IMG/VR virus record: IMGVR_UViG_3300005289_000081
Location: 1 to 26,991 of that record
Length of the DNA: 26,991 bases
Direction: 5' to 3' (one strand)
DNA from: a virus
The translations under genes and the position numbers were made by a program. Below, piece after piece: positions 10,893-26,552 of this stretch (within the stretch, counting starts at the first letter, position 1; every line of letters begins with the position of its first letter). The notes under the pieces were generated by a model that saw nothing but the letters and a program-made list of their open reading frames with translations, was not told the origin of the DNA and searched no databases.

Positions 10893-10909
10893 ATTAGCGT
10901 TGTGCTGAT
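10893..10909. promoter_or_regulatory. Operator O1 of the TTNAGC-N5-GCTKAA family
   Basis: ATTAGC-GTTGT-GCTGAT, the weakest member of the seven-site family. On the minus strand its right end runs into TAATTT, a -10-like hexamer placed as at the site at 11073. No convincing -35 is seen. It lies 20 bases upstream of the capsid start codon, so it may be a secondary operator in the capsid leader. Confidence 0.55.
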
Positions 10910-10969
10910 TTTCGAGCGGGGATGCAGGTGCGCCCTGGGCCGCTCTGGCGATCGTCGGTTCGCCTGCAA

Positions 10970-11011
10970 CCTTCCGCTTCTTTAGCGGATAAGCACCGGG
11001 GCAGCGGAAGG
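10970..11011 (-). other. Leader RNA with alternative stems before the capsid gene
   Basis: In the leftward mRNA, CCTTCCGCT (11011-11003) can pair perfectly with AGCGGAAGG (10978-10970). An intervening CCGCT (10988-10984) can pair with the same AGCGG. The two stems exclude each other, as in attenuators. The leader spans about 200 bases from the promoter near 11070 to the capsid ATG. I do not recognise a known riboswitch class, and the function is unknown. Confidence 0.45.
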
Positions 11012-11069
11012 CTGGGATACCGGACAGAGCTTTGGGGAAGGAAGGACCACCCCCGAAGCCCTGCGCCGG

Positions 11070-11097
11070 AAATTACGCTATATGCTTAATCAGTCAA
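11070..11097 (-). promoter_or_regulatory. Promoter for the capsid gene
   Basis: On the minus strand TTGACT (11097-11092), a 16-base spacer and TAATTT (11075-11070) form a good sigma70-type promoter directed at the capsid gene. The operator at 11073-11089 fills the spacer and touches the -10. It sits just past the scaffold gene stop, so the capsid, decoration and tail genes can be transcribed apart from the terminase-portal genes. Confidence 0.65.
11073..11089. promoter_or_regulatory. Operator O2 in the capsid promoter
   Basis: TTACGC-TATAT-GCTTAA, near-perfect dyad symmetry with a 5-base AT spacer. It overlaps the promoter at 11070-11097, so a bound protein would block the polymerase. It belongs to the same family as the sites at 18129, 18591, 25995, 26499 and 26534. 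Confidence 0.7.
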
Positions 11098-11104
11098 GAC
11101 GATT

Positions 11105-11983
11105 TCAGCGCCGCCCCTGCTGTTGCTGGTAGCGCCCTTGCGCGACCAGCGCCGTGAGCCGCTGATTTTCCTTGTCCTCCGGCGACCCCGCGACCTGCGC
11201 TTTCGCGCGCCAGCTCGCATCCTTGTACAGTTCCTGCTGGCGCGCTTCTGCCTGCGCCGGGGTCATTGCCCCCATGCCGGGCGGAATATCGCCACCGGGG
11301 ATGCTTGGCAGATCGCCCACCCGATCATGCAGCGAGAACATGAAGCGCATCAGATTGGCCGAGCCAATCTTGCTATCCAACGCCGCCATGTCTTCGGTCG
11401 ACAGCTGCACGCCCATCTGCGGCAGCCAGGCTTTCAACGCATCCAGCTTCTGGTCGAAATTGCCGCCCGCCTTGTTGAAGTCCCCTTTGAAGGTCTCCAG
11501 ATCGGCGGCGCTCGCCTCGCTCTGACGCAACAAGTCGGCCGCGACGGCCTGATTATTGTAATCGACGATCGCCTTCACCTGCTGGGGCAACAGTCCATTT
11601 TCGTGCGCCACCTTGCGGAATCCGTCCGCGAACTCCGCAGGCATGCCCTCGGGCACGTCGATCTCATAGACCGTCGCATCCGCCGGGCGCACAGCATCCG
11701 CAAACGCTTTGAACGACTCCGGCGTGTCCCCCGGCATCGGCACCTTGCTGCTCGCCAGCGCCTTGGTCGCGATATGCCCCTTCGCGAAATCGTCGAGCGT
11801 GCCGTAATTGGCGAACACGGCATTGCCGCGCAGATCTTCCGACAGGCTATCACGCCATGTTGCAGCCGCCGGGGCGGGTGCCGGGGTCAGCGCGTCCGCG
11901 CTGGGCGTCGGCGACGGAGCCGGCGCGGGCGACGGCGCGGGAGTGGGAGAAGGTGCAGGCGCCGGGGTGGCAACGTCGCTCAT
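11105..11983 (-). CDS. Scaffolding protein
   Basis: A 292-residue protein. The N-terminal 40 residues are a low-complexity Pro/Ala/Ser repeat (PAPSPTP units). A helical, charged body follows, with a segment AEFADGFRKVAHENGLLPQQVKAIVDYNNQAV typical of podovirus scaffolds, and the C-terminus is Gln/Arg-rich (GRYQQQQGRR), suitable for capsid contact. It lies between the Bbp19-like gene and the major capsid gene, the usual scaffold slot. The ATG overlaps the upstream stop (ATGA) and has AAAGGA as ribosome site. It would guide head assembly and then leave or be cleaved. Confidence 0.8.
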   Translation of the reverse strand: MSDVATPAPAPSPTPAPSPAPAPSPTPSADALTPAPAPAAATWRDSLSEDLRGNAVFANYGTLDDFAKGHIATKALASSKVPMPGDTPESFKAFADAVRPADATVYEIDVPEGMPAEFADGFRKVAHENGLLPQQVKAIVDYNNQAVAADLLRQSEASAADLETFKGDFNKAGGNFDQKLDALKAWLPQMGVQLSTEDMAALDSKIGSANLMRFMFSLHDRVGDLPSIPGGDIPPGMGAMTPAQAEARQQELYKDASWRAKAQVAGSPEDKENQRLTALVAQGRYQQQQGRR

Positions 11984-12330
11984 GATTGTCCTTTCATGGT
12001 GTTGAGAAGCGTTTGAAGACGGCGGAGCTTCGCCGCATCGAGGTGAAGGCTCTTGAGGATCAGGCGGACCATGCGCTGCGCGCCCAGCGCCTCGCGCAAT
12101 TCGCTGTCGCTCACCGGGCCACGGATGCCCGCGACATCGGCATGGGCAGCCAGATGGTCGAAGAAGCGGGCGGCTTCGGGCCGGACTTCCCCATTCGCAT
12201 CAAGAAACAGCGTGCGGGCGTCGGATTGCAGCCGCGTCATAGCGCCGATCGACGCGGCCACCCTAGCCATGCGCGCCTTAGCCTTGGCGGCATCGGCCGC
12301 GAGCGCGTTGATGTCCTGCTCAAGCGACAT
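11980..12330 (-). CDS. Small head-assembly-region protein, possibly Bbp19-like
   Basis: A 116-residue helical protein between portal and scaffold. The segment ARTLFLDANGEVRPEAARFFDHLAAHADV recalls small podovirus proteins of the Bbp19 type, which have an LF..P.G...L.DL-like core and occupy the same slot; the match is only suggestive. The N-terminus is a short helix rich in Ala and Lys. It overlaps the portal end by 11 bases, and its stop forms ATGA with the scaffold start, so it is probably translationally coupled. Function unknown; a role in head or connector assembly is inferred from position. Confidence 0.6.
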   Translation of the reverse strand: MSLEQDINALAADAAKAKARMARVAASIGAMTRLQSDARTLFLDANGEVRPEAARFFDHLAAHADVAGIRGPVSDSELREALGAQRMVRLILKSLHLDAAKLRRLQTLLNTMKGQS

Positions 12331-13978
12331 TGGCGGCCCCGGCCTGGCTCAAATCCTTGGCGGCCCGCGCGACTTCGGGCAGCGCCTCCAGCGCCTGCTG
12401 CGCCTGCGCCGCGTTGAACCGGGCTTCTTCCGCCGCTTCCTTCTCCGAATCCGTCGCCGCCCAACTCGCCGGCACTGCCTCGATTTCGGCGATGCCACGC
12501 ACCGCCTTGTCCAAAGGGAACTCGGTAAAGAAGATATCCAGCGCCTCGGGCTTGTACTGCGCCACCGCCGTGACCTTATCGAGCGTGCGGAAATAGCCGC
12601 TCGCCTGCTCCGACCGGATCATGCGGTTCAGCGGATTGTCGTACTTCATCGCCCGCGCGCCGCCCGCTTCGCGGACCTCGTGCGGCATGTCGTCGAACTC
12701 GCCCAGCTGCGCCATCAGGTCGACCTCGCGCATGTTCATGGGCGTGAACCATTCTTCTTCCTGGCGGCTCAATGGCTGGAGAAGGATGCCCTTTTCCTGC
12801 TTGCGGTCGTAGAGCTGGGCGTCGGTCACATGGCTTTTCAGGTCGTTCAGAACCGACAGCATGTGACGGAAGAACGCGCGATCGATGACCTTCTCGATAC
12901 GCTGCTGGATCATCAGCGCCGGGTTCATGTCGCCCACGTCGAACAGGCGCTGAACGGTCGGATTGCCGCGATGGTCGATCGCGCCATAGGTGATTTCGCG
13001 CGCGCCATAGATGATCTGCTGATCCTGCATGTCATCGGATGCGCCAAGCGGCGGCATCAGCGACATTTCCGCCCCCACCATCATATCCAGCATGATCGCC
13101 TGGGCCGATTTCACCGATGGCAGAACCTTCGTACCGGGGCCGCGACCGTAGGTTTCATTGGGCGAACGGTAAAAGCGCGAATAGGTGCTGGGATTGCTGT
13201 TCCATCCGCCCTGCTGGATATATTCCTTGTCCCCGATCGAAATGAAGCCGCCCATATAGGGCTTGCCGCGCCAGTCCATGCGATCATGGTCAACATTGTA
13301 ATTGACCTCGCACGTCCGCATGAACTCGAATTCGTTTGACCGTTTCTTGGGATCGGTCGCGGCCTCCAGCACCTTCGGCGCGCGCTGCAACTTTTCATCG
13401 CCGAAGAACTGGCGCGCCTGTTCGGCGGTCCACCGGAATTTCTTGTGGAAGCGGAAGGGGATGCCCTGCCAGTCCTGCTCGATCCACACGCCGCCGATAT
13501 GCTCGCTGCGATACTTCATGCCGATCGGCTGCCGGGTCATGGGGTCGAACCGCAGTTCCACGTCCATCGACTGGTTGCCGAAGCACATCAGGCTGGCGAT
13601 GCTTTCCGCTACCTGACCGCTCCAGCCCGACATGGGATCATTGCGCAGCGCGAACAGGCGCAGCGTCTTGCGCTCGAACCATTCGCGCACATGCTGGTAG
13701 CGTTTCAGTTCCTCGGGCGCTTGCAGCAGCTGCCACAGCGACCCGGCAGGCATAACGAAGCCCTGGAAAACGGACACGCCATCGTCCAGCGCATCTTGCC
13801 CATATTCGTCAATGACCTGATTGGACCGATCCTCGCCCTCCGCGCGGCGGGTATCCCATGGGAAATCCGCCTGGCGGGGAAGGAACAGCTCAGCGGCTTC
13901 CTGCCACCTGCTGTCAAAATTGGAACGCTTGGTCTCCAATTCGCCCTGCTTGGCGATCGCGGCGGCCGCGTCGAGCAT
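12320..13978 (-). CDS. Portal / head-tail connector protein (T7 gp8-like)
   Basis: A 552-residue protein matching the T7-type head-tail connector family in length and motifs: an early RWQEAAELFLPRQADF helix, then FVMPAGSLWQLL (74-85), YGRGPGTKVLPSVKSAQAIM (277-296), the most conserved family segment, and a C-terminal Ala/Glu-rich helical tail. The protein forms the ring through which DNA is packaged and ejected and docks the terminase. The start at 13978 has GGGGGGAAGGA upstream. It is followed by the Bbp19-like gene and scaffold, the usual order. Confidence 0.9.
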   Translation of the reverse strand: MLDAAAAIAKQGELETKRSNFDSRWQEAAELFLPRQADFPWDTRRAEGEDRSNQVIDEYGQDALDDGVSVFQGFVMPAGSLWQLLQAPEELKRYQHVREWFERKTLRLFALRNDPMSGWSGQVAESIASLMCFGNQSMDVELRFDPMTRQPIGMKYRSEHIGGVWIEQDWQGIPFRFHKKFRWTAEQARQFFGDEKLQRAPKVLEAATDPKKRSNEFEFMRTCEVNYNVDHDRMDWRGKPYMGGFISIGDKEYIQQGGWNSNPSTYSRFYRSPNETYGRGPGTKVLPSVKSAQAIMLDMMVGAEMSLMPPLGASDDMQDQQIIYGAREITYGAIDHRGNPTVQRLFDVGDMNPALMIQQRIEKVIDRAFFRHMLSVLNDLKSHVTDAQLYDRKQEKGILLQPLSRQEEEWFTPMNMREVDLMAQLGEFDDMPHEVREAGGARAMKYDNPLNRMIRSEQASGYFRTLDKVTAVAQYKPEALDIFFTEFPLDKAVRGIAEIEAVPASWAATDSEKEAAEEARFNAAQAQQALEALPEVARAAKDLSQAGAANVA

Positions 13979-14001
13979 GTTCCTTCCCCCCGGTTTATGG
14001 A

Positions 14002-14847
14002 TCAGGCGGTTTCAGCCACCGGCTTTACCGGCGCGCGAAAGATCAGGCTGTCCGCCGCCAGTTCAGCCTTCCGGCCCTCCCCAATGTGCAACGGCGTCGG
14101 GATTTCGCACCGCATAGCCAAATCCTGCCCAACTTGGAGCGACACGCCCCGCACGGTGAAAGCGGGAATGTCGCTGGGCAGATCGATTTTGGCCGAAAGG
14201 CGCAGCATCTCATCGGCCTGCACCAGCTGGGCCGCGTCGATTTCCTTCGCGAAGTCGATGCAGAACGCCTTGCCGTCATCGAGGACCAGCACAGCTTTTT
14301 CGACATGCTCGGCCTTGAAGCCGTTCGCGTCGGGGGAGCCGCCGAACAGGCGATCATAGGCCTTAGCCGCTTCGCCCTGCGCAGCGTGGCGCTTTTCCGC
14401 CGCTGCCTCCCTCTGCTTGGCTTCCGACCTATCGCGGCGCGCCTGCTCCTTGCGCGCGTTGCTCGCGTCTTCCGCCGCCTGCGCGGCCGATTCTGCCTTT
14501 TCGCGGGCCGTCTTCTGCTCCGGGGTTTCCGGCAACAGCTTGGCGATCAGATCGGGCAGCGAGGCTTCGAGGATCGGGGGCAGGATTTCGCGCAGCTTCT
14601 CCACGACGACGCTACCGATCAGCTCGCGCTCCACATCGGAGAAAACCGGCGTCGTCTGCGTCCCCGAGGCAACAGACGGTGCATTCGGGTCAGGCTCCAG
14701 CCCCGGCTGCGCTCCCGGCTCGCCCGCCCCTTCCTCTGCGCCGCTGTCTTCCTGCGCGCCAGACTGGACAGACCCAGCAGACGCATTTTCAACGTCATCT
14801 GATTTTTTTTCGTTCGCTTGCTGCGCATCAACCTTTTGCTTTGTCAC
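14002..14847 (-). CDS. Unknown virion-region protein with coiled coil, GTG start
   Basis: A 281-residue protein in three parts: an acidic disordered N-terminus (residues 1-65, many Asp, Glu, Ser and Gly), a central coiled coil (about 105-160, Lys/Glu/Ala/Gln-rich), and a C-terminal compact domain (about 165-281, for example AVLVLDDGKAFCIDFAKEIDAAQ). It starts with GTG at 14847 preceded by AGGAAGGAA at good spacing. It sits between the 7.3-like protein and the portal. I do not recognise the family; a head-completion, portal-accessory or virion-internal role is possible. The GC-rich third codon positions support coding. Confidence 0.65.
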   Translation of the reverse strand: MTKQKVDAQQANEKKSDDVENASAGSVQSGAQEDSGAEEGAGEPGAQPGLEPDPNAPSVASGTQTTPVFSDVERELIGSVVVEKLREILPPILEASLPDLIAKLLPETPEQKTAREKAESAAQAAEDASNARKEQARRDRSEAKQREAAAEKRHAAQGEAAKAYDRLFGGSPDANGFKAEHVEKAVLVLDDGKAFCIDFAKEIDAAQLVQADEMLRLSAKIDLPSDIPAFTVRGVSLQVGQDLAMRCEIPTPLHIGEGRKAELAADSLIFRAPVKPVAETA

Positions 14848-14883
14848 GATAAATTCCTTCCTGCCTTACGCTTTCTGATGAAG

Positions 14884-15123
14884 TCACGCGCCAAGCGAAG
14901 TCTTGGCACCGGTGGAAGATTCCGCCCCGCCGACGCCCATCAACATGTCCGCGGCCGGGGTGCGTCGACGGGACAGGACATCGCGCTTCTGCGCCTCCTC
15001 CGCCGCCTGGTTGACAGTTGGCGTCGGCACGGCCTTCGGCATCTTGGGCTTGCTGAGTGCCTGCGCAGCCGACGCCCCCGCACCAATCACCGCCGCACCA
15101 ATCAAAACCGCCGCTGTGCTCAT
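14884..15123 (-). CDS. gp7.3-like tail-assembly/adsorption protein (79 aa)
   Basis: A short protein with an N-terminal Ala/Gly hydrophobic stretch (AAVLIGAAVIGAGASAAQAL), a Lys/Pro linker, then RDVLSRRRTPAADMLMGVGG and a Gly/Ser tail. This resembles the small podovirus proteins with an RRR...TILTG..G-type motif near T7 gp7.3, which help tail assembly and adsorption. Its ATG overlaps the terminase large subunit stop (ATGA). The resemblance is moderate and the exact function is inferred. Confidence 0.6.
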   Translation of the reverse strand: MSTAAVLIGAAVIGAGASAAQALSKPKMPKAVPTPTVNQAAEEAQKRDVLSRRRTPAADMLMGVGGAESSTGAKTSLGA

Positions 15124-16724
15124 CGCCGTGCCCCCGCAAAGCCAGTATGTTTGACATTGGTGGCGACCTTCTTCGCCGCCGCCTTCCGATCCATGTCATC
15201 CAGCACGCTGCCGCGCTTGTTCAGACCCGCGACCAGATACTGGAGCGCGTCCTGAACATGGCTGAAATCGTTTTTCAGAGGCTCATCTTTCCAGAGCCCC
15301 GTGCCGTTGGAACGGCTTACCCGGGTGATGACATAACCATTGTTGAACCCGCGCCGCAGATAACGGCAGGCAGGGCTGATAATCATGCCCGGACGGCCCG
15401 CGACATTGTTGACGAGCAGATCGCGGACGATCTCCAGACGCCCCTGTGGCCCCTTGAGGCGGTTCCCCTTCACCGGCGCCGGCTTGACCTTCATCCCGAA
15501 CGCCAGCGAGAAATCGTCCAGCCACGAAGGGTCCAGTTCCGTGCCCTCATAATCCGTCGCCGGATCTGACCAGGCGACATTGATGCGGGCGTTGGGGAAC
15601 CGCTCATTGACGAACTCGCGGCACGCTTTTCCGAATGCGGTTGGCCCCATGGACTGGAGCTGTTTGTCGTCATCATCATTGAAGATAACCAGCTCATCGA
15701 CGATGCGGATTTGCCCGGTGGGCATTTTCTGGCCGAACACCGCAGCCGGGGTCGCGCCGCCGTCGATCGCCATGCACAGCTCGATGCCCTCGGCCGCGCG
15801 CAATTCGCTGACGGCGGTGTGGAAGGCATCGATGAACTCGGGAAAAACAGGCTGACCGTTCCGAACCGCGCCGAATTCATTGTCGACGAAGCGGCGCACG
15901 TCATTGTCGTTGGCACCGATCATCAGGCGATCATAGTAACCCGGCGGAAGGTTCGCCAAATTCTCGGCGTTGGGATCGCGAGCGCCAGGCTGGCGATGGA
16001 AGGCCACCCCGAAATTTGCGCCATAGAGCTTGCGGAACTCATCCAGCTGCTTTTCGCTTAGGCCAAGGTTCTTCTCGACCAGCAGCTCATAGGTCCAGTT
16101 GTCGACATCGGGCGCGTTCATGTCGAGGAAGATGCCCGACCATGCGCAGCCGCCATCCTTCGCCTTGGGATAGCGGCCGACGCGCGGCAGCCCGAATTTC
16201 AGGACCGCGCGATGCAGCGTGTCGCCCTCGTTTAGCCACAGCCATGTCAGCTGCATGCCCTTGAAGACCTTTTCCGGCTTGTTTTCCTCGCCGAGCGCGC
16301 GCCAGAGGATTTCAATCTCCAGCTTGCCATAGCCGGGTATGTCCAACTTCAACTTCGACACCATGTCGTCGCCGTTGAAGTTGTCCTTTGTCTTCGGGAA
16401 CCAGCTGAAAAAATCGTCCATGACGTTGGCCTTCAGCTGGGCATAGGTTTCACGGATCACGCATCCGCGCGATCGCCGCACCCCATCCTTGCCCGGCTTC
16501 TGCCACATCGTGATCCAGATGATTTTCTGGAAACAGCTGGTCGTTTTCGCGGAGCCATAAGGCCCCATAATCCCGCTCAGGAACATCTTGTCCTGGACGA
16601 ACCGGGATGCCACCGGCCCGACGAAATTCATGGTCGCGGCGCGGGCTTCCCCTTCCGCGTCGTCATCGCGGTCGATGGTCGGGATGCTGTCGTAGGAGGG
16701 GACCGCCGCTGCGTTACTCGCCAT
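15120..16724 (-). CDS. terL: Terminase large subunit
   Basis: A 534-residue packaging motor. The ATPase domain has a Walker A variant GPYGSAKTT (54-62) and a Walker B-like LTWLWLNEGDT. The RNase H-like nuclease domain shows the acidic pattern CMAIDGG, VAWSDPATD and DFSHVQDALQYL. The start at 16724 is chosen because GGAGG lies 7 bases upstream; an in-frame ATG at 16748 has no ribosome site. It overlaps the terminase small gene end by 11 bases. It would cut concatemeric DNA and drive it into the prohead through the portal. Identification is strong. Confidence 0.92.
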   Translation of the reverse strand: MASNAAAVPSYDSIPTIDRDDDAEGEARAATMNFVGPVASRFVQDKMFLSGIMGPYGSAKTTSCFQKIIWITMWQKPGKDGVRRSRGCVIRETYAQLKANVMDDFFSWFPKTKDNFNGDDMVSKLKLDIPGYGKLEIEILWRALGEENKPEKVFKGMQLTWLWLNEGDTLHRAVLKFGLPRVGRYPKAKDGGCAWSGIFLDMNAPDVDNWTYELLVEKNLGLSEKQLDEFRKLYGANFGVAFHRQPGARDPNAENLANLPPGYYDRLMIGANDNDVRRFVDNEFGAVRNGQPVFPEFIDAFHTAVSELRAAEGIELCMAIDGGATPAAVFGQKMPTGQIRIVDELVIFNDDDDKQLQSMGPTAFGKACREFVNERFPNARINVAWSDPATDYEGTELDPSWLDDFSLAFGMKVKPAPVKGNRLKGPQGRLEIVRDLLVNNVAGRPGMIISPACRYLRRGFNNGYVITRVSRSNGTGLWKDEPLKNDFSHVQDALQYLVAGLNKRGSVLDDMDRKAAAKKVATNVKHTGFAGARR

Positions 16725-17424
16725 CGCCGCCCTCCGGGACTGGCTCATAATCCGCCTCTTCCGGCGCCCCGATCATCCGCATATTCTCGAAGTCGATCGC
16801 GTCCATGCCCTTTTGGGTCAGCGCGTCCTCCAGCTGCCCCATCGGCACGTCCATCGGCGCGTTGATGCCGGGGATGATGATGAAGGCATCCGTCTTGCCA
16901 GCCACTTCCACCGTGAGCGGCTGCCGCCCGTGGACATAGGTTTGCATGTCGCGCAGCACGCCGACCTGCATCTGGGCGACATCGAGGGCGCTGATCTTTT
17001 TTCGCGACATGTAGCGGATAAGCTTGTCCGCCAGCTTCCCCGCCATCTTCGCGGACAGCGCGTCCCCTAGCCGGTCGATGATCCGCTCGATGCGATCCAG
17101 TTCCTCGCCGTCCCCGTCATCGTCGGCCGCACGAATGACCTGCACCAGCATAGGCAGCGGCATCGATGCCATGTTGCCCAGCGCATCCGCCGGATCGCCG
17201 TATTTCTGGACAAACCATTGCGCGAATTTCTTGTTGCGCTTGTTGAGCGCGTTCGGCGGGCGTCCGCGGCGGACCTCGCGCAGGTGCTGATGCGGGATAT
17301 TGCCGTTCGCGTCTGCCAACATGCTCAGCTGCACAGCGTCGGGAAACGCTCCGCCTAGATCCGCGTGGCTGATGCCGGCGGCGTCGGCGACCGCCTTTTC
17401 CATGCTGCTAGGTTCGGTTGACAT
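16714..17424 (-). CDS. terS: Terminase small subunit (probable)
   Basis: A 236-residue protein directly before terL, the usual slot for the DNA-recognition subunit. An AT-hook-like RRGRPPNALNKR (about residues 52-63) could bind DNA, and it is followed by helical segments (FAQWFVQKYGDPADALGNMAS) typical of terminase-type helix-turn-helix proteins. The middle is helical (DRIERIIDRLGDALSAKMAGKLADKLIRYM) and suits oligomerisation. The C-terminus is acidic. The family is not certain from sequence alone, but context is strong. Confidence 0.75.
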   Translation of the reverse strand: MSTEPSSMEKAVADAAGISHADLGGAFPDAVQLSMLADANGNIPHQHLREVRRGRPPNALNKRNKKFAQWFVQKYGDPADALGNMASMPLPMLVQVIRAADDDGDGEELDRIERIIDRLGDALSAKMAGKLADKLIRYMSRKKISALDVAQMQVGVLRDMQTYVHGRQPLTVEVAGKTDAFIIIPGINAPMDVPMGQLEDALTQKGMDAIDFENMRMIGAPEEADYEPVPEGGDGE

Positions 17425-18118
17425 GCCCGAAGCCCCCGCCTAGCCTCGCACCACTTCCACCCTGCGCCAGGACAGCCGCAATTGCACCCTGACCCGTATC
17501 GCAGCGTAGCCCCGTCGCGCTTTCGCGCCGACTGAAACTCGCGCGCGGGTTCCCCCGCGCCCCCGACCCCATTGGCCCCCGGCTAACTTCGCCCATCCGG
17601 CGATGCCCGGCTTTCAGGAAGGGCGGCAACGATCGGCCGCCTCGATCCGAAAGATCGGCCTCTGGCTGAGCCGCGCCTGCGCGACACGGGTGGCACCAGA
17701 CGAAGACGGGGCGGTGGGGGGGCGCGCCCCCCACCTGCCCACGATGCCGCCAAGCGGCACCCCTGCCCTGCGCATGCGACCCGCAGGCGTGGTGCAAATT
17801 GGTGATTATCCGAGGATCGACCCAAAAGGCCGACATATCAGCAGCTTGCATAGAGCCATGCGACGGAAGCCATGCGACGGCGCAGAATCCGCCCACGAAA
17901 AACGGCCGAAATCCGCCAATTTCGGCAAGAGCCTCGACCGGCAGCGCCGAGGCCTCATCGACCCAGATCGGCACGGCCTGGCCGACCTGCCGCCGCAAAT
18001 TTTTCCGGCCGACCCCACTCCGCCCCGCGACCAACACCCGTCCAGCGACAGAGCGCGCATAAACGCCCCCTATTTTATTCGAGGCGACGGCGCGGCGAGG
18101 ATCGAAGGCAACGACCAT
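17408..18118 (-). CDS. Uncertain ORF upstream of the terminase
   Basis: An open frame of 236 codons on the late strand. For it: the ATG at 18118 lies 9 bases after the -10 of the operator-controlled late promoter, like the leaderless-type starts of the two XRE genes. The first half reads plausibly (QVGQAVPIWVDEASALPVEA), and the middle has HHACGSHA and WCHPC, a possible zinc-binding pair. Against it: the C-terminal half is low-complexity Arg/Gly, the frame crosses a run of seven G residues at a strong hairpin, and spurious long frames are common in such GC-rich DNA. The region may instead be an untranslated leader or packaging site. Confidence 0.35.
   Translation of the reverse strand: MVVAFDPRRAVASNKIGGVYARSVAGRVLVAGRSGVGRKNLRRQVGQAVPIWVDEASALPVEALAEIGGFRPFFVGGFCAVAWLPSHGSMQAADMSAFWVDPRIITNLHHACGSHAQGRGAAWRHRGQVGGAPPHRPVFVWCHPCRAGAAQPEADLSDRGGRSLPPFLKAGHRRMGEVSRGPMGSGARGNPRASFSRRESATGLRCDTGQGAIAAVLAQGGSGARLGGGFGHVNRT
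17713..17735. repeat. Strong GC hairpin/palindrome upstream of the terminase
   Basis: GGTGGGGGG (17713-17721) and CCCCCCACC (17727-17735) are perfect complements around GCGCG, which includes a GGCGCGCC core. A smaller 7-bp hairpin lies at 17543-17560 (GCGCGGG/CCCGCGC, loop TTCC). Both are upstream of the terminase genes, a common place for pac or cos signals. No terminator T run follows on either strand. Confidence 0.5.
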
Positions 18119-18126
18119 GGATCAGA

Positions 18127-18156
18127 GACTTAGCATATTGCTGAAATCAGCGACAA
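18127..18156 (-). promoter_or_regulatory. Leftward late promoter
   Basis: On the minus strand TTGTCG (18156-18151), an 18-base spacer and TAAGTC (18132-18127). It closely resembles the promoter of the leftward XRE gene (TTGTCA, 18 bases, TAATTG), and both share TGATTTCAGC in the spacer. It would drive the terminase and downstream virion genes. It is overlapped by an operator. Confidence 0.5.
18129..18145. promoter_or_regulatory. Operator O3 at the late promoter
   Basis: CTTAGC-ATATT-GCTGAA, a member of the seven-site family. It covers the -10 and spacer of the leftward late promoter, so occupancy should silence virion genes in the lysogen. Confidence 0.65.
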
Positions 18157-18168
18157 GCCCTCCCCTCA

Positions 18169-18407
18169 TGTTCCATTGTTCCAGCTTCTGAAAGACAAAA
18201 TGGAACATAGTTAAGGCCCGGTTTACTTAGCTCGCGGCGGGATGGTGGCGCATGTTCCAATGTTCCACGGATCGCGCATGTCTGCGCATGCGCGCGCGGG
18301 CCACGCACGCACGGGCCGACCAGCCCCGGCCGGAACAGCGGATCATGACCTTAACCGATTGGGTTAGCTTGTTCTTTTTATGGAACAGACATTCCGCGCA
18401 TGGAACA
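18169..18407. repeat. TGTTCCA/TGGAACA repeat cluster
   Basis: Exact heptamers TGTTCCA occur at 18169, 18177, 18253 and 18261. Inverted copies TGGAACA occur at 18201, 18381 and 18401, and a near copy CGGAACA at 18331. The forward copies form two tandem pairs with an 8-base period; the last two inverted copies are 20 bases apart. No convincing gene overlaps the cluster. An alternating purine-pyrimidine tract (18275-18315) lies within it. The arrangement is iteron-like and may be a replication origin, a packaging signal or a regulator-binding array. Elsewhere I noticed only one isolated copy (13198). Confidence 0.65.
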
Positions 18408-18410
18408 CTC

Positions 18411-18459
18411 CCCCGACCCATCGGCGGCATCCAGCCTGATCGCTGCCTATGGGTCGGGG
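18411..18459. repeat. Perfect 11-bp inverted repeat with 27-base loop
   Basis: CCCCGACCCAT (18411-18421) pairs with ATGGGTCGGGG (18449-18459). It lies just after the heptamer cluster and about 90 bases before a plus-strand terminator. It could be part of an origin, or the first stem of a small RNA that ends at that terminator. Confidence 0.6.
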
Positions 18460-18550
18460 CCACATGAGAGCTAAGGAAATGGGTGCGGGCGGGAGACGCC
18501 AAAGGAGCGCGGACGCACCGCGACGGCTGCGCCGCCGCTGTCCGCGCGAA

Positions 18551-18584
18551 GAATGAAGACGTTGAAACGCCTTCATTCTTTTTT
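18551..18584 (+). terminator. Rho-independent terminator
   Basis: GAATGAAG (18551-18558) and CTTCATTC (18571-18578) form an 8-bp stem with a 12-base loop, followed by a T run (18577-18584, interrupted by one C). It works on the plus strand only. No plus-strand gene is convincing upstream of it, so it either insulates the early promoter that starts right after it or ends an unrecognised small RNA. Confidence 0.75.
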
Positions 18585-18585
18585 G

Positions 18586-18614
18586 TTGACTTAAGCTATT
18601 TGCTGAAATTATTG
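18586..18614 (+). promoter_or_regulatory. Rightward early promoter
   Basis: TTGACT (18586-18591), a 17-base spacer and TTATTG (18609-18614). It is directed at the early gene set starting at 18664. The operator at 18591-18607 lies inside the spacer, and the terminator stem ends just upstream. Confidence 0.65.
18591..18607. promoter_or_regulatory. Operator O4 in the early promoter
   Basis: TTAAGC-TATTT-GCTGAA, close to the family consensus. It fits within the promoter spacer, so binding should block early transcription. Confidence 0.7.
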
Positions 18615-18663
18615 TCTGATTGTCGCCACTCGGGCGGCACCTTCGCCAAAAGGAAAATCAGAT

Positions 18664-19102: not shown

Positions 19103-19133
19103 CCAAGCATCACCCTTCGCCAAAGGACAAGCT

Positions 19134-20584: not shown

Positions 20585-20586
20585 CC

Positions 20587-20889: not shown

Positions 20890-20891
20890 CC

Positions 20892-21212: not shown

Positions 21213-21314
21213 AATCCACCCCGTAATTCAGCCCGCCGTAAGGTAAGCTCGGTTAAAAGCCCGGAAACTAATGCCTTGCCCCCGTGGGGACAGAGCAACG
21301 GGGTATTATCAAAA

Positions 21315-21491
21315 ATGGATAACGAATTGCACCGCGCACTTGTGGCACCGGCGATCAAGGGACTTGCGCAGCTGCTGGAGGCAGCCGATCCGCGCGAGGA
21401 ACTGCCCGTGCGCGGCCTGGCGGCATTGACGCGGCTAATCGCGGAGGCGGCGGACCGGCAGGAGCTTGACGCCCTCGCCGAGCGGCCCTAG
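21315..21491 (+). CDS. Small helical protein (58 aa)
   Basis: A 58-residue, almost entirely helical, Ala/Leu/Glu-rich protein (KGLAQLLEAADPREELPVRG). Third codon positions are GC-rich, which supports coding. The ATG at 21315 is preferred over upstream in-frame starts because TATTAT (a -10-like hexamer) ends 5 bases before it, so the mRNA could be leaderless; a GGGG lies 11 bases upstream as an alternative weak ribosome site. No good -35 is seen. A terminator follows at 21530. No family is recognised. Confidence 0.6.
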   Translation: MDNELHRALVAPAIKGLAQLLEAADPREELPVRGLAALTRLIAEAADRQELDALAERP

Positions 21492-21529
21492 CCCTCCTTC
21501 ATACGAGTTCTTTTGGCGAAGAAGGGAAC

Positions 21530-21562
21530 GGCCTCGCATCCAATGGGTGCGGGGCCTTTCTC
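21530..21562 (+). terminator. Rho-independent terminator
   Basis: Stem arms 21530-21541 and 21545-21556 form a 12-bp hairpin (with G-T pairs) around an AAT loop, followed by TTTCTC. It ends the plus-strand 58-residue gene and lies just before the convergent end of the leftward replication operon at 21568. Confidence 0.7.
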
Positions 21563-21567
21563 ATGAC

Positions 21568-21768
21568 CTATTGCAGCCGCGCCTTCATGTCGCGCAGGTC
21601 GGACTGTGCCCACACGCGCATCATCACTGCATCTTCCTCGCAGATGCCCAGCCAGCGCGCGATGATGTCGATCGGCATGTGCGCCATCCACCACGCGCCC
21701 GGCGCATTATCCTCCAGCTGCTCCGCGCTTAGTCGCGACGGGCGCGGCTTCTCGGGGTCGAATATCAT
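21568..21768 (-). CDS. Small protein at the end of the replication operon (66 aa)
   Basis: A 66-residue protein. The C-terminal half contains a helix-turn-helix-like segment IDIIARWLGICEEDAVMMRVWA, and the N-terminus is charged and Pro-rich (DPEKPRPSRLSAEQLED). The ATG at 21768 overlaps the stop of the 28-residue ORF (ATGA); an in-frame TTG at 21774 is less likely. There is no clear ribosome site of its own, so coupling is expected. Function unknown; a small DNA-binding protein is possible. Confidence 0.6.
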   Translation of the reverse strand: MIFDPEKPRPSRLSAEQLEDNAPGAWWMAHMPIDIIARWLGICEEDAVMMRVWAQSDLRDMKARLQ

Positions 21769-21851
21769 CGACAACGCTGCGCGCCGACGATCATCACCGC
21801 CAGCGACAGGTCGAGGCTGACCAGCAGGTAGACGGCGATGCAGTAGCTCAT
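21765..21851 (-). CDS. 28-residue single-span membrane microprotein
   Basis: A very short frame, with ATG at 21851 overlapping the helicase stop and TGA overlapping the next ATG, both as ATGA. The peptide MSYCIAVYLLVSLDLSLAVM continues to IVGAQRCR. Residues 3-24 are one hydrophobic span with one Asp, and the end is positively charged (RCR), as expected for a small inner-membrane peptide with its C-terminus inside. It fills the gap exactly between two genes of the replication operon. A membrane anchor, a toxin-like peptide or a holin-like peptide are all possible; none is shown. Confidence 0.55.
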   Translation of the reverse strand: MSYCIAVYLLVSLDLSLAVMIVGAQRCR

Positions 21852-23875
21852 CGCGCGTCCAGCTGCGCCAGCTCGGCCGTCGCGCCCGCCCTTGCGGCCG
21901 TCAGGTCGACAATCTCCGACAGCGGCACCAGCGTCGACCAGATGCCCGGCCCGTCATAGCGGACCTTCACATTGCCCGGCACCGATCCCTCGATCATGCG
22001 CAGCGCCTGCGGCCATTCGCCATTCTTCCATGTGGTGCCTGCGAATATCTGGCGCAGCGCCTCGCTATTTTTGTTGGCCACGGCCAGATACATGACCTCT
22101 TCGGCATTGTCGCGCAGGGCCGCGATCGCGCCCCATTTGACCGTCTCGCCGCCGTCCGCCGCCTTCTCGACCTTCCGCGTGGCGTACATCAGCTGCATGC
22201 CGTGCGTGCGCAGCTTGTCGCGCGCCTCGCGTCCGCCCTGACCTTCCTTGCAGATTTCGATGAAGGCCCGCTCGATCCAGCGCGCCACCGTCTCCTGATG
22301 CTTGCCAGCAGCAGCCGACAGGCGGAACTGCGTCAACCGGCCCAGGCACCGCTCGCTCGTGCTTTCCGCCTCCGCTTCCGCGATCGACAGCATCGGTCCC
22401 AGCGCCTCGACGAAGCGCCGGCAGCGCGTCGTCGCTTCCGGGTCCGGTTCGTTCGGGTCGCCCATGTCCAGCTGGACGATCGGCGCGCTGTCGAACAGCA
22501 TCAGGTCGGCCAGCGCCAATATCTCGCCATAGGTATTCTGCCCGCGCGGATCGACGCGATGGCGCAGCAACTCCGCCTGATAGGCCGCCAGCGTGGCAGG
22601 GTAGCGTGGCCACTGGTCGACCAGTCGCCGGGTCAGGGCCAGCCCCACATCGTTGAGCGTGCCCTTGAGCCCCCATTTCTTCTCCATGATCGCCTCGATG
22701 CCGCCGACATCGATCGCGGCCGTGTTCGGCGGGAACTTGGATAGCGTCAGGATCGCCATGCGGTTGCGGTCCTGCTGCTCCAGCTCGTGGTGCATGATGG
22801 AGGAAAAGAGGAAACAGCTATAGGCGACGAAATCGACCGCCTTATGGTCGCTGGAGCCGCGCCCCTTCTTCGCGCCCGAACTGGCGAGACGCGCCAGCGC
22901 GATGATCTTCTTGACAAATCCGCCGCCATCCTCGCTCGGCTCCGGTTCGTCGTAGAGGACGGGCAGGCGCTGATCCATCAGCGACTGTGAAATCCACGCT
23001 TCGGACGGGTCCTGGCTCTCCAGCGCCCATTCGACCAGCAGCCGGGAAATCAGCCCCTGCAACGTCGACTTGCCCGCGCCGGATGGACCGACCAGCCACA
23101 TATGCGGACGCCACCCGATCGCGCCGCACAGCTTGGCGCAGCCCAGCCAGCCCAGCACCAACAGCGCATCGAGCGAAACCCGATCCTTGCCGTTCGCATC
23201 GAGCGACACGGTGCGCCCATCCTTCCAGTTCCAGCCCGCAAGGATGCGCAACACGCCGCGCCCGGCATCGACCTCCGCCCCCTTGCCGGGCCTAGGCAGT
23301 CCCGGCGCGGTAGGAAAGATATGCGGTCCGATCAGGCCGGGATCGCTCCAGATCGTCTTGGCCGCCTGCCCGCGCGCATTCTTGCGCCCGCCGATTAGGA
23401 TGGCATCGCCGCAATGCAGGATGATTTCGCCATTGGCCCCGCGGTGCGATCCACGCCCGCGCACCTTGCCCGCCGGGTCGAACAGCCCGCGCCGCGCGCT
23501 TTCATGGATCAGCGCCCGCTGCACCTTGGTCTGGTTAAAACCGTCCTTCACCATCTGGGGCGGGTTCTTGTCGCTATTCCCGCCGATATTCTTCCATTGC
23601 GGGAAACTGTCATCCAGCCAGAGCATTTCCGTGCCGAACAGCAGCATCAGCTCGCCCTTGCGGAACTCGCTGCCCATGGTGCGCAGCTGGCCGCGATAGT
23701 CGAGGAAATAGAGCTTGTCGCTTAGGTGGCCGAGCGGCTGCACCGGACAATCCGGCGGCAGCTCGACCATTTCCATGCTGTCGCCGCGTGAACGGCGATC
23801 GGGCTCGCGCAGATCTGGCGCGTCCTGCGCGCCGTCGACAATCGCGCCGATGTCATCGACGGGGGAACCGGTCAT
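21848..23875 (-). CDS. Phage replicative helicase, SF3/AAA+-like
   Basis: A 675-residue ATPase. Walker A GPSGAGKST is at residues 263-271, Walker B LPVLYDEPE at 304-312 (Asp309, Glu310), then FSSI (357-360) and the basic QDRNRMAIL (368-376), a likely arginine-finger region. The layout of a ~240-residue N-terminal domain plus a single AAA+ core fits phage helicases that act with a separate Toprim primase, which lies three genes upstream in the same operon. The start at 23875 has AGGGGGG before it. It would unwind phage DNA at the fork. The superfamily assignment is probable rather than certain. Confidence 0.75.
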   Translation of the reverse strand: MTGSPVDDIGAIVDGAQDAPDLREPDRRSRGDSMEMVELPPDCPVQPLGHLSDKLYFLDYRGQLRTMGSEFRKGELMLLFGTEMLWLDDSFPQWKNIGGNSDKNPPQMVKDGFNQTKVQRALIHESARRGLFDPAGKVRGRGSHRGANGEIILHCGDAILIGGRKNARGQAAKTIWSDPGLIGPHIFPTAPGLPRPGKGAEVDAGRGVLRILAGWNWKDGRTVSLDANGKDRVSLDALLVLGWLGCAKLCGAIGWRPHMWLVGPSGAGKSTLQGLISRLLVEWALESQDPSEAWISQSLMDQRLPVLYDEPEPSEDGGGFVKKIIALARLASSGAKKGRGSSDHKAVDFVAYSCFLFSSIMHHELEQQDRNRMAILTLSKFPPNTAAIDVGGIEAIMEKKWGLKGTLNDVGLALTRRLVDQWPRYPATLAAYQAELLRHRVDPRGQNTYGEILALADLMLFDSAPIVQLDMGDPNEPDPEATTRCRRFVEALGPMLSIAEAEAESTSERCLGRLTQFRLSAAAGKHQETVARWIERAFIEICKEGQGGREARDKLRTHGMQLMYATRKVEKAADGGETVKWGAIAALRDNAEEVMYLAVANKNSEALRQIFAGTTWKNGEWPQALRMIEGSVPGNVKVRYDGPGIWSTLVPLSEIVDLTAARAGATAELAQLDAR

Positions 23876-23991
23876 GACCAGTCCCCCCTGGTGCTATGCG
23901 GGGCGCGCGCTGAACGCCGCGAGGCGGTGCCCGATGACACCGCGCTGGGGGCCTTGCGAGCCGTACCAGACGGCCCTCCGGGTATATTCAT
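23872..23991 (-). CDS. Possible 39-residue basic coupled ORF
   Basis: A short frame bridging the ~110-base gap between the 80-residue gene and the helicase. Its ATG overlaps the upstream TGA and its TGA overlaps the helicase ATG, both as ATGA. The peptide begins MNIPGGPSGTARKAPSAV and continues with Ser, Arg and Ala; it has no Glu, one Asp, and a net positive charge. GGGAGG lies about 12 bases before the ATG. It may be a small nucleic-acid-binding peptide, or a frame kept open to couple translation into the helicase. Composition is low-complexity, so caution is needed. Confidence 0.45.
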   Translation of the reverse strand: MNIPGGPSGTARKAPSAVSSGTASRRSARAPHSTRGDWS

Positions 23992-24230
23992 TTCTTGATG
24001 GCCTCCCGATCGCCACGGACAGGGCAACTTTCACCCAAGTCCTTTTTGGAAAGCACGATCTTGGCGTCACGAAGGAACCGCCAGCCTGTGACGCGCGGGT
24101 CCGTGCCGACAGTGTCCCACTGATAGCCCCTTGCCTTCGACAGCCGCTTGGCCGCCGCTATTTCCTCCCGTGTGAAGAGGGCAAACACGGGCGCCAGTTT
24201 GTAACCCATGCAGTCGCGGGTGCGGGGCAT
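23988..24230 (-). CDS. Hypothetical protein in replication operon (80 aa)
   Basis: An 80-residue basic protein. The core APVFALFTREEIAAAKRLSKARGYQWDTVG is an amphipathic helical segment followed by GWRFLRDAKIVLSKKDLG. The charged Arg/Lys-rich surface could contact nucleic acid. The start at 24230 overlaps the stop of the 99-residue gene (TGATG), which argues against the internal Met8. It precedes the helicase and follows the primase and 99-residue genes. Family not recognised. Confidence 0.6.
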   Translation of the reverse strand: MPRTRDCMGYKLAPVFALFTREEIAAAKRLSKARGYQWDTVGTDPRVTGWRFLRDAKIVLSKKDLGESCPVRGDREAIKK

Positions 24231-24529
24231 CAGGCGGGCTTCTCGATATTGATCTTTGGGCCCCAGAAGAAATCAAGTGGCCATTGAGTGATAGGGATAC
24301 CGAATACCTGCACAGAGAAGTGCTCGGGATCATCAATGTCGCCAAAAGGATCGTTTTCGTTGACCTCAACTATTTCCCATCCACCGGAGCACCAGCTTGA
24401 CTTGCCGTCATCATCCGTTTCTGGCGTCAGCTTTACGCCGCCGGGAACATCCTGGTGATAGAGTATTCCGCCGCTGGGCGTCTTGAGTTTCGCCCAATAG
24501 TAACTGGGTTCTGTAGGCATCTGGCTCAT
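24230..24529 (-). CDS. Hypothetical protein in replication operon (99 aa)
   Basis: A 99-residue protein starting MSQMPTEPSYYWAKLKTPSG. It is rich in short beta-like aromatic motifs (GILYHQDVPGGVKL, WCSGGWEIVEV, FFWGPKINIEK) with acidic loops (NENDPFGDIDDPE). The start at 24529 overlaps the primase stop (ATGA), so longer upstream readings in the same frame are shadows of the primase. Base composition is slightly less GC-rich than the neighbours, hinting at a later insertion. No family recognised; a beta-rich accessory protein is all that can be said. Confidence 0.6.
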   Translation of the reverse strand: MSQMPTEPSYYWAKLKTPSGGILYHQDVPGGVKLTPETDDDGKSSWCSGGWEIVEVNENDPFGDIDDPEHFSVQVFGIPITQWPLDFFWGPKINIEKPA

Positions 24530-25677
24530 TCGGCCCGTTCCTTTCCGGTGAGCATGTCGTTGAAGTCTTTGAATTGCTGCGGCGGGAAGATGGTGCGGAC
24601 AGTCCGCCCCCGCGCCTGATGCTCGGCGATCGCGCGCTCCAGCGCCTCGATCGGCTCCGGCTTCATGTCGTTCTGCCCGATGATGACCAGCGCGCCGATC
24701 TGTTCGGGCAGTTCGACCGCCCCCATCTTGCTGAGCGACACGCCCGCGATCACACGCAGCTGCGGCCGCACGAACGCGATCGACAGCCCATCCTCGATCC
24801 CTTCGGACATATAGACATCGGTGCCCGCCGGTATGTTGCGCAGCGGGTGGCGATGATCGCCCTTCCACAGCGGAATATGGCCGCCGATCGACGGGCCCAG
24901 CGTCAGCTTCGCATCGTTCAGCGAGGCCTTGCGAACCGGCCCGGCTTTGCCCTCCGATACGTCCAGATAGGTCCGGTGGACGCCGCGCAGGCCGCCATCC
25001 AGCCCCATGACGCAGGCCACCATGGTCGGGATTTTCGCGCGATCGCGACCATCGCGCTCCGCCAATTCCGTGCACCACGCCGCCGGATGATAGCGCAGGC
25101 TGCCCGGCACCTTCCCCAGCTGGGCAAGGTCGATGCCACGCCCCGCCAGATAGCCGAAAGCCGGGGTGCGGCCATCAGGACCGGCAATCCGCGCGCTGCC
25201 ATTCCACAGCCGCTGCGCGCTCGACCGCTTGGCCTCGCGTTCCTCTGCCTCGGCAATCTCCGCTTCCTGCCGCCGCTTGTCCGATTCCGCGCGCGATCGC
25301 GCAAAATCCTGCTCGCTCATCCGGTCGACGCCGACCAGGCGCTTGGCCTCGGCGAAACCCTTGGCGAAATCACCCTTCCATTCGCGCTCGACATAGAGCG
25401 ACAGGATATCGCCACCGGCGCCGGGCTGTCCCCGCGCCAAGCCGAAATCATTCCATGATCCCTGCTTGCTGCCCGATAGATTGACCTTGAGCGAATAGCT
25501 CCCGGTCTTTTCGTCCCGGATATTGGACGTTTCCCAGAAATTGCCCGACTTGCGCCCGTTCGGCAGCAGCATCCGGGCGAACTCGGCCGCGCGGGCGTTC
25601 ATCCGCTCGCGCACCTCATCCACCTCGGCGCGCATCCGGCGCTGGCGTTCCGCATCGCTGTCCCCGCCCCCGCGCAT
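24526..25677 (-). CDS. Toprim-domain DNA primase
   Basis: A 383-residue primase of the phage Toprim type. Residues 72-95 (GSWNDFGLARGQPGAGGDILSLY) match the phage primase N-terminal region. The Toprim domain spans about 285-375: catalytic Glu292 in MSEGIEDGLS, the DxD region GQND (334-337) and KDFND (370-374). The first Asp of the usual DxD pair is Gln335, so metal binding may differ. No zinc-finger Cys cluster is visible. The gene follows the XRE regulator by 2 bases and is coupled to the 99-residue gene. It would make primers for the helicase further down the operon. Confidence 0.78.
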   Translation of the reverse strand: MRGGGDSDAERQRRMRAEVDEVRERMNARAAEFARMLLPNGRKSGNFWETSNIRDEKTGSYSLKVNLSGSKQGSWNDFGLARGQPGAGGDILSLYVEREWKGDFAKGFAEAKRLVGVDRMSEQDFARSRAESDKRRQEAEIAEAEEREAKRSSAQRLWNGSARIAGPDGRTPAFGYLAGRGIDLAQLGKVPGSLRYHPAAWCTELAERDGRDRAKIPTMVACVMGLDGGLRGVHRTYLDVSEGKAGPVRKASLNDAKLTLGPSIGGHIPLWKGDHRHPLRNIPAGTDVYMSEGIEDGLSIAFVRPQLRVIAGVSLSKMGAVELPEQIGALVIIGQNDMKPEPIEALERAIAEHQARGRTVRTIFPPQQFKDFNDMLTGKERAE

Positions 25678-25679
25678 CG

Positions 25680-25985
25680 TCAGCCCGTCGCTCGAAATTC
25701 GGACCGGGCGCGTTCGGCTTCCAGATTGCGGGCGATCCGGTAAGGCACCCCGTTCTTGAAATAGAAATCATTGGGCATCAGGCCAGTGAGGTCGCAGATC
25801 GCCACCATATTGGCCTGCGTCGGGATCTTCCGGCCTTCCTCCCAATCCTGCCAGACCGGCGGTTTCACGCCCACACGACGCGCAGCCTCGCTGATCGACA
25901 TGACGCGCCGATGGTTGCGGCGGGGCTCCTCATAGGTTTGAGAGAGACGCCAAGATTTGAGTGGATGCAGGGGCTTAGTTGCCAT
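25680..25985 (-). CDS. XRE-type regulator of the early/replication operon
   Basis: A 101-residue DNA-binding protein. Residues about 28-75 form an XRE/Cro-type helix-turn-helix (MSISEAARRVGVKPPVWQDW then EEGRKIPTQANMVAICDLTG), preceded by the basic HPLKSWRLSQTYEEPRRNHRR. The C-terminal tail is short, with no dimerisation or protease domain. The ATG at 25985 has no ribosome site but lies 7 bases after a minus-strand -10 (TAATTG), so a leaderless mRNA is likely. It heads the replication operon, like Cro- or CII-type regulators, and faces a second XRE gene across a shared operator. Confidence 0.75.
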   Translation of the reverse strand: MATKPLHPLKSWRLSQTYEEPRRNHRRVMSISEAARRVGVKPPVWQDWEEGRKIPTQANMVAICDLTGLMPNDFYFKNGVPYRIARNLEAERARSEFRATG

Positions 25986-26006
25986 ACGGCTCAATTAAGC
26001 TATATG
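25979..26006 (+). promoter_or_regulatory. Rightward promoter of the second XRE gene
   Basis: TTGCCA (25979-25984), a 16-base spacer and TATATG (26001-26006). The ATG at 26015 is 9 bases after the -10, so the mRNA may be leaderless. It overlaps the leftward promoter and operator O5. Confidence 0.5.
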
Positions 26007-26021
26007 CTGAAATCATGACAA
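25992..26021 (-). promoter_or_regulatory. Leftward promoter of the replication operon
   Basis: Minus strand TTGTCA (26021-26016), an 18-base spacer and TAATTG (25997-25992). It is the near twin of the late promoter at 18127-18156. The XRE gene ATG follows the -10 after 6 bases. Confidence 0.5.
25995..26011. promoter_or_regulatory. Operator O5 in the divergent regulator promoters
   Basis: TTAAGC-TATAT-GCTGAA, the best match to the family. It covers the -10 of the rightward promoter and the spacer of the leftward one, so one bound protein would affect both XRE genes. Confidence 0.72.
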
Positions 26022-26443
26022 GACCTGCCGGAACATTTTTTCAGCAAGGGGCCGTGGGACAGCAAACTGGGGCACGGATTATACCGTTTCCCATGCAGAA
26101 AAAGCTTCCCAACCGCGTCCGCGAACTGCGCAAGCTGCACAAGCTGACACTGGAAGAACTCGCCGATCGCGTTGGCATGACCGCCGCGCACCTGTCCGAC
26201 ATCGAGCGCAGCAACCGACGCCTGTCGACGCACTGGATGGCGCTACTGGCGAAGCAACTGCGCGTCGGTCAGGCGGACCTGCTAAATGAGGAAGATCGCG
26301 GCGTCATCGGCGACGAAGGGCTGCACCGCCTCAAGGAACTTTATTCGGCCGCCTCGCTCGACCAGCAGCAGGCGCTGCTGCACGTCGCGGAAGCCATGCT
26401 TGGCTTCAAAAGCGAGCCCTCGGAACTTAAAAAGGCGGGCTGA
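26015..26443 (+). CDS. XRE-type regulator, probable lysogeny repressor
   Basis: A 142-residue protein. An XRE helix-turn-helix spans about residues 31-90 (LPNRVRELRKLHKLTLEELA then DRVGMTAAHLSDIERSNRRL). The C-terminal part is helical (GLHRLKELYSAASLDQQQALLHVAEAML), probably for dimerisation, with no S24/LexA-like protease domain. I choose the ATG at 26015 because it lies 9 bases after a -10 box; the next candidate, Met27 at 26093-26095, has no ribosome site. It diverges from the leftward XRE gene around operator O5. It is a candidate binder of the operator family. Induction could not use standard RecA-stimulated self-cleavage of this protein. Confidence 0.75.
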   Translation: MTRPAGTFFQQGAVGQQTGARIIPFPMQKKLPNRVRELRKLHKLTLEELADRVGMTAAHLSDIERSNRRLSTHWMALLAKQLRVGQADLLNEEDRGVIGDEGLHRLKELYSAASLDQQQALLHVAEAMLGFKSEPSELKKAG

Positions 26444-26498
26444 TCCGAACCCTCCGGGCCGATTCGGCCAGCGGAATCCGCCCCTTAGCGGGACATAA

Positions 26499-26515
26499 AT
26501 CAGCAAATAGCTGAA
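26499..26515. promoter_or_regulatory. Operator O6 upstream of the right-edge gene
   Basis: ATCAGC-AAATA-GCTGAA, with perfect dyad TCAGC/GCTGA. Its centre lies 35 bases from operator O7. It is upstream of the -35 of the promoter at 26524, so the pair may allow cooperative binding. Confidence 0.65.
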
Positions 26516-26523
26516 TTTTTCTG

Positions 26524-26552
26524 TTGATTGATTTTCAGCAAATAGCTTAAGA
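26524..26552 (+). promoter_or_regulatory. Promoter of the right-edge DNA-binding gene
   Basis: TTGATT (26524-26529), a 17-base spacer and TTAAGA (26547-26552), ending 28 bases before the ATG at 26581. Operator O7 covers the spacer and -10. Confidence 0.6.
26534..26550. promoter_or_regulatory. Operator O7 in the right-edge promoter
   Basis: TTCAGC-AAATA-GCTTAA; its reverse complement TTAAGC-TATTT-GCTGAA is identical to operator O4 at the early promoter. It lies inside the promoter at 26524-26552. Confidence 0.7.

Follow-up and report, generated by a model that had tools for sequence, protein, structure and literature searches.

Late genes of phage lambda are controlled through Q. The C1 repressor of phage P1 instead represses lytic genes at 22 dispersed and asymmetric 17-bp operators, and in the account consulted late genes are reached through the activator Lpa (PMC8546580). 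Cluster A mycobacteriophages such as L5 and Bxb1 are described as carrying 20–30 repressor sites per genome, with cognate motifs that are similar, not identical, and track repressor distance; these "stoperators" are presented as mostly not promoter-associated and as asymmetric, following the direction of transcription (PMC6550527). For the prophage SPbeta, a master repressor, MrpR, is reported to act at a repeated 15-bp element (SPBRE) found in many prophage promoters (PMC10516654). Here we describe a family of 17-bp palindromes in IMG/VR virus record IMGVR_UViG_3300005289_000081, the whole of which (26,991 bases, hereafter the window) was analyzed. Six of these palindromes, O2 to O7, are in our judgment probable operators of the phage's own CI-like XRE protein (XREp), predicted to silence the early, late, capsid and right-edge promoters together. 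Literature on the operators of these phages was not found among titles and abstract openings, a search that covered few subscription journals.

An earlier note on this DNA had listed seven sites of a single motif, TTNAGC-N5-GCTKAA, and all seven 17-mers were found where it had placed them, although only three match the motif exactly and one, O1, is better explained as a hairpin stem. The exact matches are O4 (18591..18607, plus strand), O5 (25995..26011, minus strand) and O7 (26534..26550, plus strand), O7 being indeed the exact reverse complement of O4; O2 (11073..11089, minus strand), O3 (18129..18145, minus strand) and O6 (26499..26515, plus strand) carry one mismatch, and O1 (10893..10909, minus strand) two. 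The sites are palindromes with an AT-rich 5-bp centre. The exact pattern TTNAGC-N5-GCTNAA occurs three times in the window, vs. 0.00 expected from 100 shuffles; with up to two mismatches to TTNAGC-N5-GCTKAA there are 30 matches, many of them sites counted on both strands, vs. 8.02 expected. In a de novo gapped-palindrome scan confined to AT-rich parts of the window, TTCAGC-N5-GCTGAA came out on top. On the basis of motif and comparison, O2 to O7 are well supported as predicted sites and lie far above chance expectation.

The six supported sites adjoin −35/−10-like elements of five putative promoters. O2 lies in the predicted promoter upstream of the capsid gene, with the −35 element TTGACT on the minus strand, and O3 in the putative late promoter, the ATG of the first late open reading frame (ORF) being 10 nt downstream. 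O4 is placed in the rightward early promoter, with TTGACT upstream, and O5 in its leftward counterpart, within the XRE intergenic region. O6 and O7 are a pair ahead of the right-edge gene, 35 bp apart, with O6 upstream and O7 in the right-edge promoter itself; the corresponding spacing is 34 bp in the related contigs G012 and G030 and 35 bp in G011. An eighth match to the motif (26579–26595, one mismatch), absent from the earlier list and overlapping the ATG of the right-edge gene, was rejected with zero comparative support.

The comparative set comprised 29 contigs, window included; relatives were found by alignment, and single-protein peptide patterns (XREp, portal, primase) yielded zero loci. 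The half-site varies among these phages (AGC, AAC, GAC, ATC, TCC, GCC), with YTTAGC in G012 and G030, TTNAAC in G011, approximately CTAAC in G025, TCCC in G026, TTCCC in the locus of Sphingomonas hankookensis KCTC 22579, TGTATC in G032 and TTGTCC in G028, yet it is common to the sites within one phage, a pattern that speaks against both a shared host factor and a simple promoter consensus. The 17 clade phages for which an operator was called have sites in the XRE intergenic region and upstream of the right-edge gene (often a pair, 34–35 bp apart), others where late and early genes diverge and, in many phages, also upstream of the capsid gene. A test motif was built solely from the sites of the XRE intergenic region and upstream of the right-edge gene, and its best match elsewhere was then located. 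This match fell in the late or capsid upstream regions, 4–11% of the contig, in 16/17 clade phages and in 0/5 others (the outgroup G010, G003, G017, G019 and MT835534); in the lone miss, G023, it lay 6 bp past the region limit used. For the late region the match was significant with respect to column-shuffled motifs in 16 of the 17 (p ≤ 0.02; exception G020, p 0.30), and in those 16 the late score was equalled by 0 or 1 of 21 other phages' motifs. For the capsid region p ≤ 0.02 was obtained in 11/17, or 10/17 (the window and nine others) once G008, a leader hairpin, was removed.

The outgroup phages G003, G017, G019 and MT835534 are switch-only: two sites accompany the XRE genes, and a second pair, spaced by 33 bp, precedes the right-edge gene. 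The terminase tree separates 18 phages with late or capsid sites, a label including G020 (capsid site only) and G034 (operator called by eye), from five switch-only phages by a 100/100 branch. Three further clade-like loci gave two clear late sites (L186), one weak candidate (L179) and none convincing (L185), and a comparable late match was absent from the six outgroup-like loci with the late region in hand (L183, L188, L190, L193, L196 and L200). The earlier proposal of one site family serving early, late, capsid and right-edge promoters, beside −35/−10-like elements, is thus borne out and extended by the conservation of position in relatives.

Either of the two XRE proteins encoded beside O5, XREp and the smaller XREm, could be considered as binder. 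The XREp residue compared lies two before the conserved Glu position in the recognition helix and presumably corresponds to Gln33 of the 434 repressor. Across 18 phages its class shared 1.53 bits of mutual information with base 5 of the half-site, a value reached in 0/20,000 shuffles (p 5e-5), Asp occurring with G, Arg/Lys with C, and other residues with A or T; the equivalent XREm residue gave p 0.13 in the same 18. Because the base covaries with the recognition-helix residue of XREp and not with that of XREm, XREp is the likely binder of the sites. The covariation table was typed by hand, and G019 and MT835534 (different register), G027 and G028 (XREm not assigned) and phages without an operator call were left out; by XREp alone, G027 (L→A) and G028 (K→C) would both agree with the residue classes. 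The palindrome of G024 has a 6-bp centre.

The residue rule was fixed in writing and then tried on new loci, 29 of 44 being examined after omission of seven already-used contigs and eight short or weak ones. From these 29, five loci without an XREp match (L192, L195, L197, L202, L203), L180 as a duplicate of L179, and six scoring weaker than −4.5 (L201, L208, L209, L210, L212, L221) were set aside, and in the remaining 17 the rule held in 12. Arg/Lys went with C in 9/10 and C was found in 0/7 others, while Asp went with G in the one case available (1/1). Doubt attaches to two of the 17: L194, scored as a miss, whose protein is perhaps no XREp, and L214, scored as a fit, with a base 6 other than C. 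Leaving both out gives 11/15 for the rule and 9/9 for Arg/Lys with C. The full residue code was rejected, the Arg/Lys–C part alone having held on the new loci; this part is as expected if a basic residue contacts the guanine on the opposite strand.

Several points weigh against the assignment of the dispersed sites to XREp. The residue classes were defined with the first data set already in view, and the score limit for calling an operator readable (−4.5 or better) was fixed once the run had been made. On the new loci the prediction of A or T for other residues was right in 2/6 (L183, L188, L193 and L196 have G), so that the non-Arg/Lys part held in 3/7, and several of the Arg/Lys loci are closely related, either among themselves or to a phage of the first set. 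The prediction for G034 (Arg with CC) was borne out in one operator half only, by eye. Regarding position, the late site was not found in G020, nor a supported capsid site in 7/17 clade phages; the motif seeds were hand-picked, and late sites had already been seen in the window, G012, G030, G011, G008 and G025. An operator was not callable in 6/29 contigs (G001, G005, G006, G014, G018, G033): dyad scans of the first five returned mostly GC-rich or weak palindromes, and G033 is without XREp. Furthermore, the window is probably a fragment, 14/19 relatives being at least 37 kb. Finally, XREm could bind the same sites, its recognition helix being nearly identical to that of XREp in G022.

XREm, which belongs to the same switch, might indeed be the main binder, or both proteins might bind equally with XREm acting at late promoters during the lytic cycle; the case of G022 would suit such an arrangement, but the residue of XREm equivalent to the covarying one shows no clear relation to the half-site in the 18 phages, and we hold this explanation to be unlikely. 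Far less credible, to the point of being almost negligible, is that the sites belong to a host transcription factor exploited by the phage. Their promoter-like placement would be compatible with it, and the exact pattern does occur 22 times (reversed control, 43) in five sphingomonad genomes of about 21.1 Mb, which belong to hosts of the relatives and stand in for the window's own host. This corresponds to about one per Mb vs. three in 27 kb, a density roughly 100 times lower, and in these hosts of relatives the refuting outcome foreseen in the earlier note, namely a motif equally frequent in host DNA, was not observed; moreover, phages with related hosts differ in the half-site, which follows a protein of the phage.

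The late and capsid palindromes might alternatively be extended promoter elements or transcript hairpins, given that all supported sites adjoin −35/−10-like elements and that O1 looks like such a case. O1 was at first accepted as an operator and dropped once the capsid leader was found to fold as a hairpin, of which it would form the inner stem (GCTCGAAAATCAGC-ACAAC-GCTAATTTTTGAGC). The 52-nt leader stretch containing it (10874–10925, minus strand) has a predicted fold of −22 kcal/mol, with a z-score of −5.7 vs. shuffles, and reaches the Shine-Dalgarno sequence. Capsid-leader hairpins were predicted in the other 27 contigs too, many of them extending into the Shine-Dalgarno region, and similarly shaped ones precede the capsid gene in relatives with a non-AGC half-site; these come from folding each sequence singly and were judged by eye. 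Because hairpins are predicted also where the half-site is not AGC, O1 is left out of the operator count, contrary to its earlier inclusion among the seven. RNAalifold on the 28-sequence capsid leader alignment returned an empty consensus with energy 0.0, and the hairpin claim is based on the single-sequence folds and the window shuffle z-score, not on covariation. Translational control of the capsid gene by this hairpin is possible, judging from the predicted folds. For O2 and O3 the situation is different: they carry the phage's own half-site, which varies among relatives jointly with the site between the XRE genes, and the operator would lie at or upstream of the predicted transcript start and so outside the RNA. 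For the late and capsid sites we consider a promoter-element or hairpin origin quite improbable.

In the regulation by XREp that we infer, covering binding, dimerization, repression, promoter use, timing and induction, a dimer would bind the 17-bp palindrome in or at the −35 to −10 spacer of each phage promoter and simultaneously turn off the capsid gene, the late and right-edge operons and both early operons, the rightward one and the leftward one with XREm, primase and helicase. Under lysogeny, repression would act on the virion genes at their own promoters, and all five promoters would be released together once XREp activity is lost. Since XREp appears to be without a LexA-type protease domain, induction would have to take a route independent of RecA-driven self-cleavage, by way of, e.g., an antirepressor. 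The Cro-like counterpart would probably be XREm. Late timing would need an added layer, which might be XREm, post-replication gene dosage, or a factor acting at the GGAACA array described below.

The geometry of the putative promoters is similar across relatives. On the strand transcribed from each putative promoter, a TTG beginning 5–16 nt upstream of the operator was found in 21/21 right-edge sites (four of them from outgroups), 15/17 XREm sites, 12/14 late, 13/15 early right and 10/15 capsid sites, vs. 15% of random positions within these contigs, although the site lists were hand-picked with weak sites included, the capsid list contains O1 and the G008 hairpin, and the random background is GC-richer than promoters, which makes the real difference smaller. 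At O3 and O5 an ATG follows the operator by 8–12 nt with no evident Shine-Dalgarno sequence in the window, G012 and G011; in the window, the starts of the first late and leftward early ORFs (18118 and 25985, minus strand) lie 9–10 nt past the operator. This spacing, together with the Shine-Dalgarno sequence not being evident, suggests that the first ORFs of both operons are on leaderless mRNAs.

Other elements were observed in the divergent region. Positions 18168–18408 of the window, between O3 and O4, contain copies on both strands of GGAACA (eight, vs. 0.24 expected) and of TGGAACA (seven, vs. 0.04 expected). The core GGAAC is present at twice the expected number or more in the corresponding region of 15/28 contigs, window included, some of them outside the clade (G005, G006, G010, G014, G018), and is not enriched there in, e.g., G003, G017, G019 and G032. 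The array may represent an iteron replication origin or a site for packaging. At 18411–18459 there is an inverted repeat of 18 nt (CCCCGACCC...GGGTCGGGG), which visual inspection also showed in several relatives; directly ahead of the O4 promoter stands a hairpin resembling a terminator, with a T-run (18549–18580).

XREp is read as a 116-aa CI-like repressor (26093..26443, plus strand) whose start codon is uncertain, in-frame starts being present upstream. It matches Pfam HTH_3 (E 1.6e-9; 38.1 bits vs. a curated cut-off of 23) and, by profile comparison with solved structures, is closest to C.AhdI, with P22 C2 and the 434 repressor also matching; the peptidase S24 family was absent from its Pfam matches up to E 0.1, and it appears not to be a LexA-type autoprotease. 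XREm (25680..25985, minus strand), a Cro-like small XRE protein (Pfam HTH_31, E 8.9e-7), is the first and apparently leaderless gene of the leftward early operon, which continues with a DNA primase (DUF7146 and Toprim; 24526..25677, minus strand) and a primase/helicase-like replication protein (21848..23875, minus strand) matching phrog_21086 (function not known) and phrog_35358 (DNA primase). Downstream of O6 and O7, the right-edge gene (26581..26991, plus strand) runs off the contig; it had no Pfam or PHROGs match up to E 0.1, and homologues are present in 27/29 contigs, window included. Below O3, on the minus strand, the late operon starts with a weakly conserved ORF (17408..18118), followed by a gene (16714..17424) assigned to the terminase small subunit from its position and weakly matching a family of unknown function, and by the terminase large subunit (15120..16748). 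The major capsid protein (PF19821; 9901..10872, minus strand) is encoded downstream of O2.

The podovirus assignment of the window is given by this capsid together with the head-tail connector (PF12236), T7-type tail tubes, the terminase and the primase/helicase early operon; Rfam gave zero matches within the window. The capsid has a distant likeness to HTVC010P-type Pelagibacter phages (16/24 matching records, all below 60% identity). Among terminase-related loci in a genome collection, 5/7 were in sphingomonads (Novosphingobium twice, Sphingomonas twice, and Stakelama) and the remaining two in Ancylobacter and a Rhizobiales bin. An integrase (PF00589) was above the cut-off in 1/13 related virus records and weak in four more. 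A temperate lifestyle would rest mainly on the related loci lying inside bacterial contigs and on the repressor genes.

At the level of the clade, we lean, with somewhat more caution, toward a scenario in which a CI-like repressor of sphingomonad-type podoviruses took over direct control of the virion promoters to give a one-layer regulon with one operator common to early, late and capsid genes, whose sites were rewritten many times, as a set, together with XREp at fixed positions, each lineage acquiring its own immunity type. More than 20 phages with dispersed sites changing jointly under similar wiring would constitute a natural series on multi-target specificity change, supply repressors with their cognate natural operators for work on immunity in hosts that have received little study, and allow one to ask how a phage times late genes bearing the same operator as early ones.

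Dispersed phage operators are a known kind, represented by P1, SPbeta and L5, and the contrast with lambda drawn in the earlier note, right as far as it goes, was overstated, since dispersed master-repressor operators are known from P1, SPbeta and cluster A. With lambda, P22 and 434 this locus shares a palindromic operator flanked by divergent XRE genes (O5, between starts 25985 on the minus and 26093 on the plus strand), and the XREp profile matches the P22 C2 and 434 structures; unlike in lambda, the late and capsid promoters here carry the operator, and unlike lambda-type repressors XREp is without a LexA-type autoprotease match. With P1 it shares one site family dispersed over early and late regions (here six sites at five promoters), whereas the P1 sites are described as asymmetric, with late genes reached through Lpa, and those of the window are palindromic and stand at the late and capsid promoters themselves. 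Cluster A phages likewise are reported to have many sites of one repressor per genome with a motif varying between genomes, but the six supported sites here are palindromic and lie by −35/−10-like elements, and do not qualify as stoperators. SPbeta offers a repeated master-repressor element in many promoters; MrpR has, however, a tyrosine-recombinase fold and not an XRE one, and most targets listed in its description are of unknown function. What would set the present system apart, judging from the comparison of related phages, are palindromic sites at late and capsid promoters and a clade-wide replacement of the half-site at largely fixed positions.

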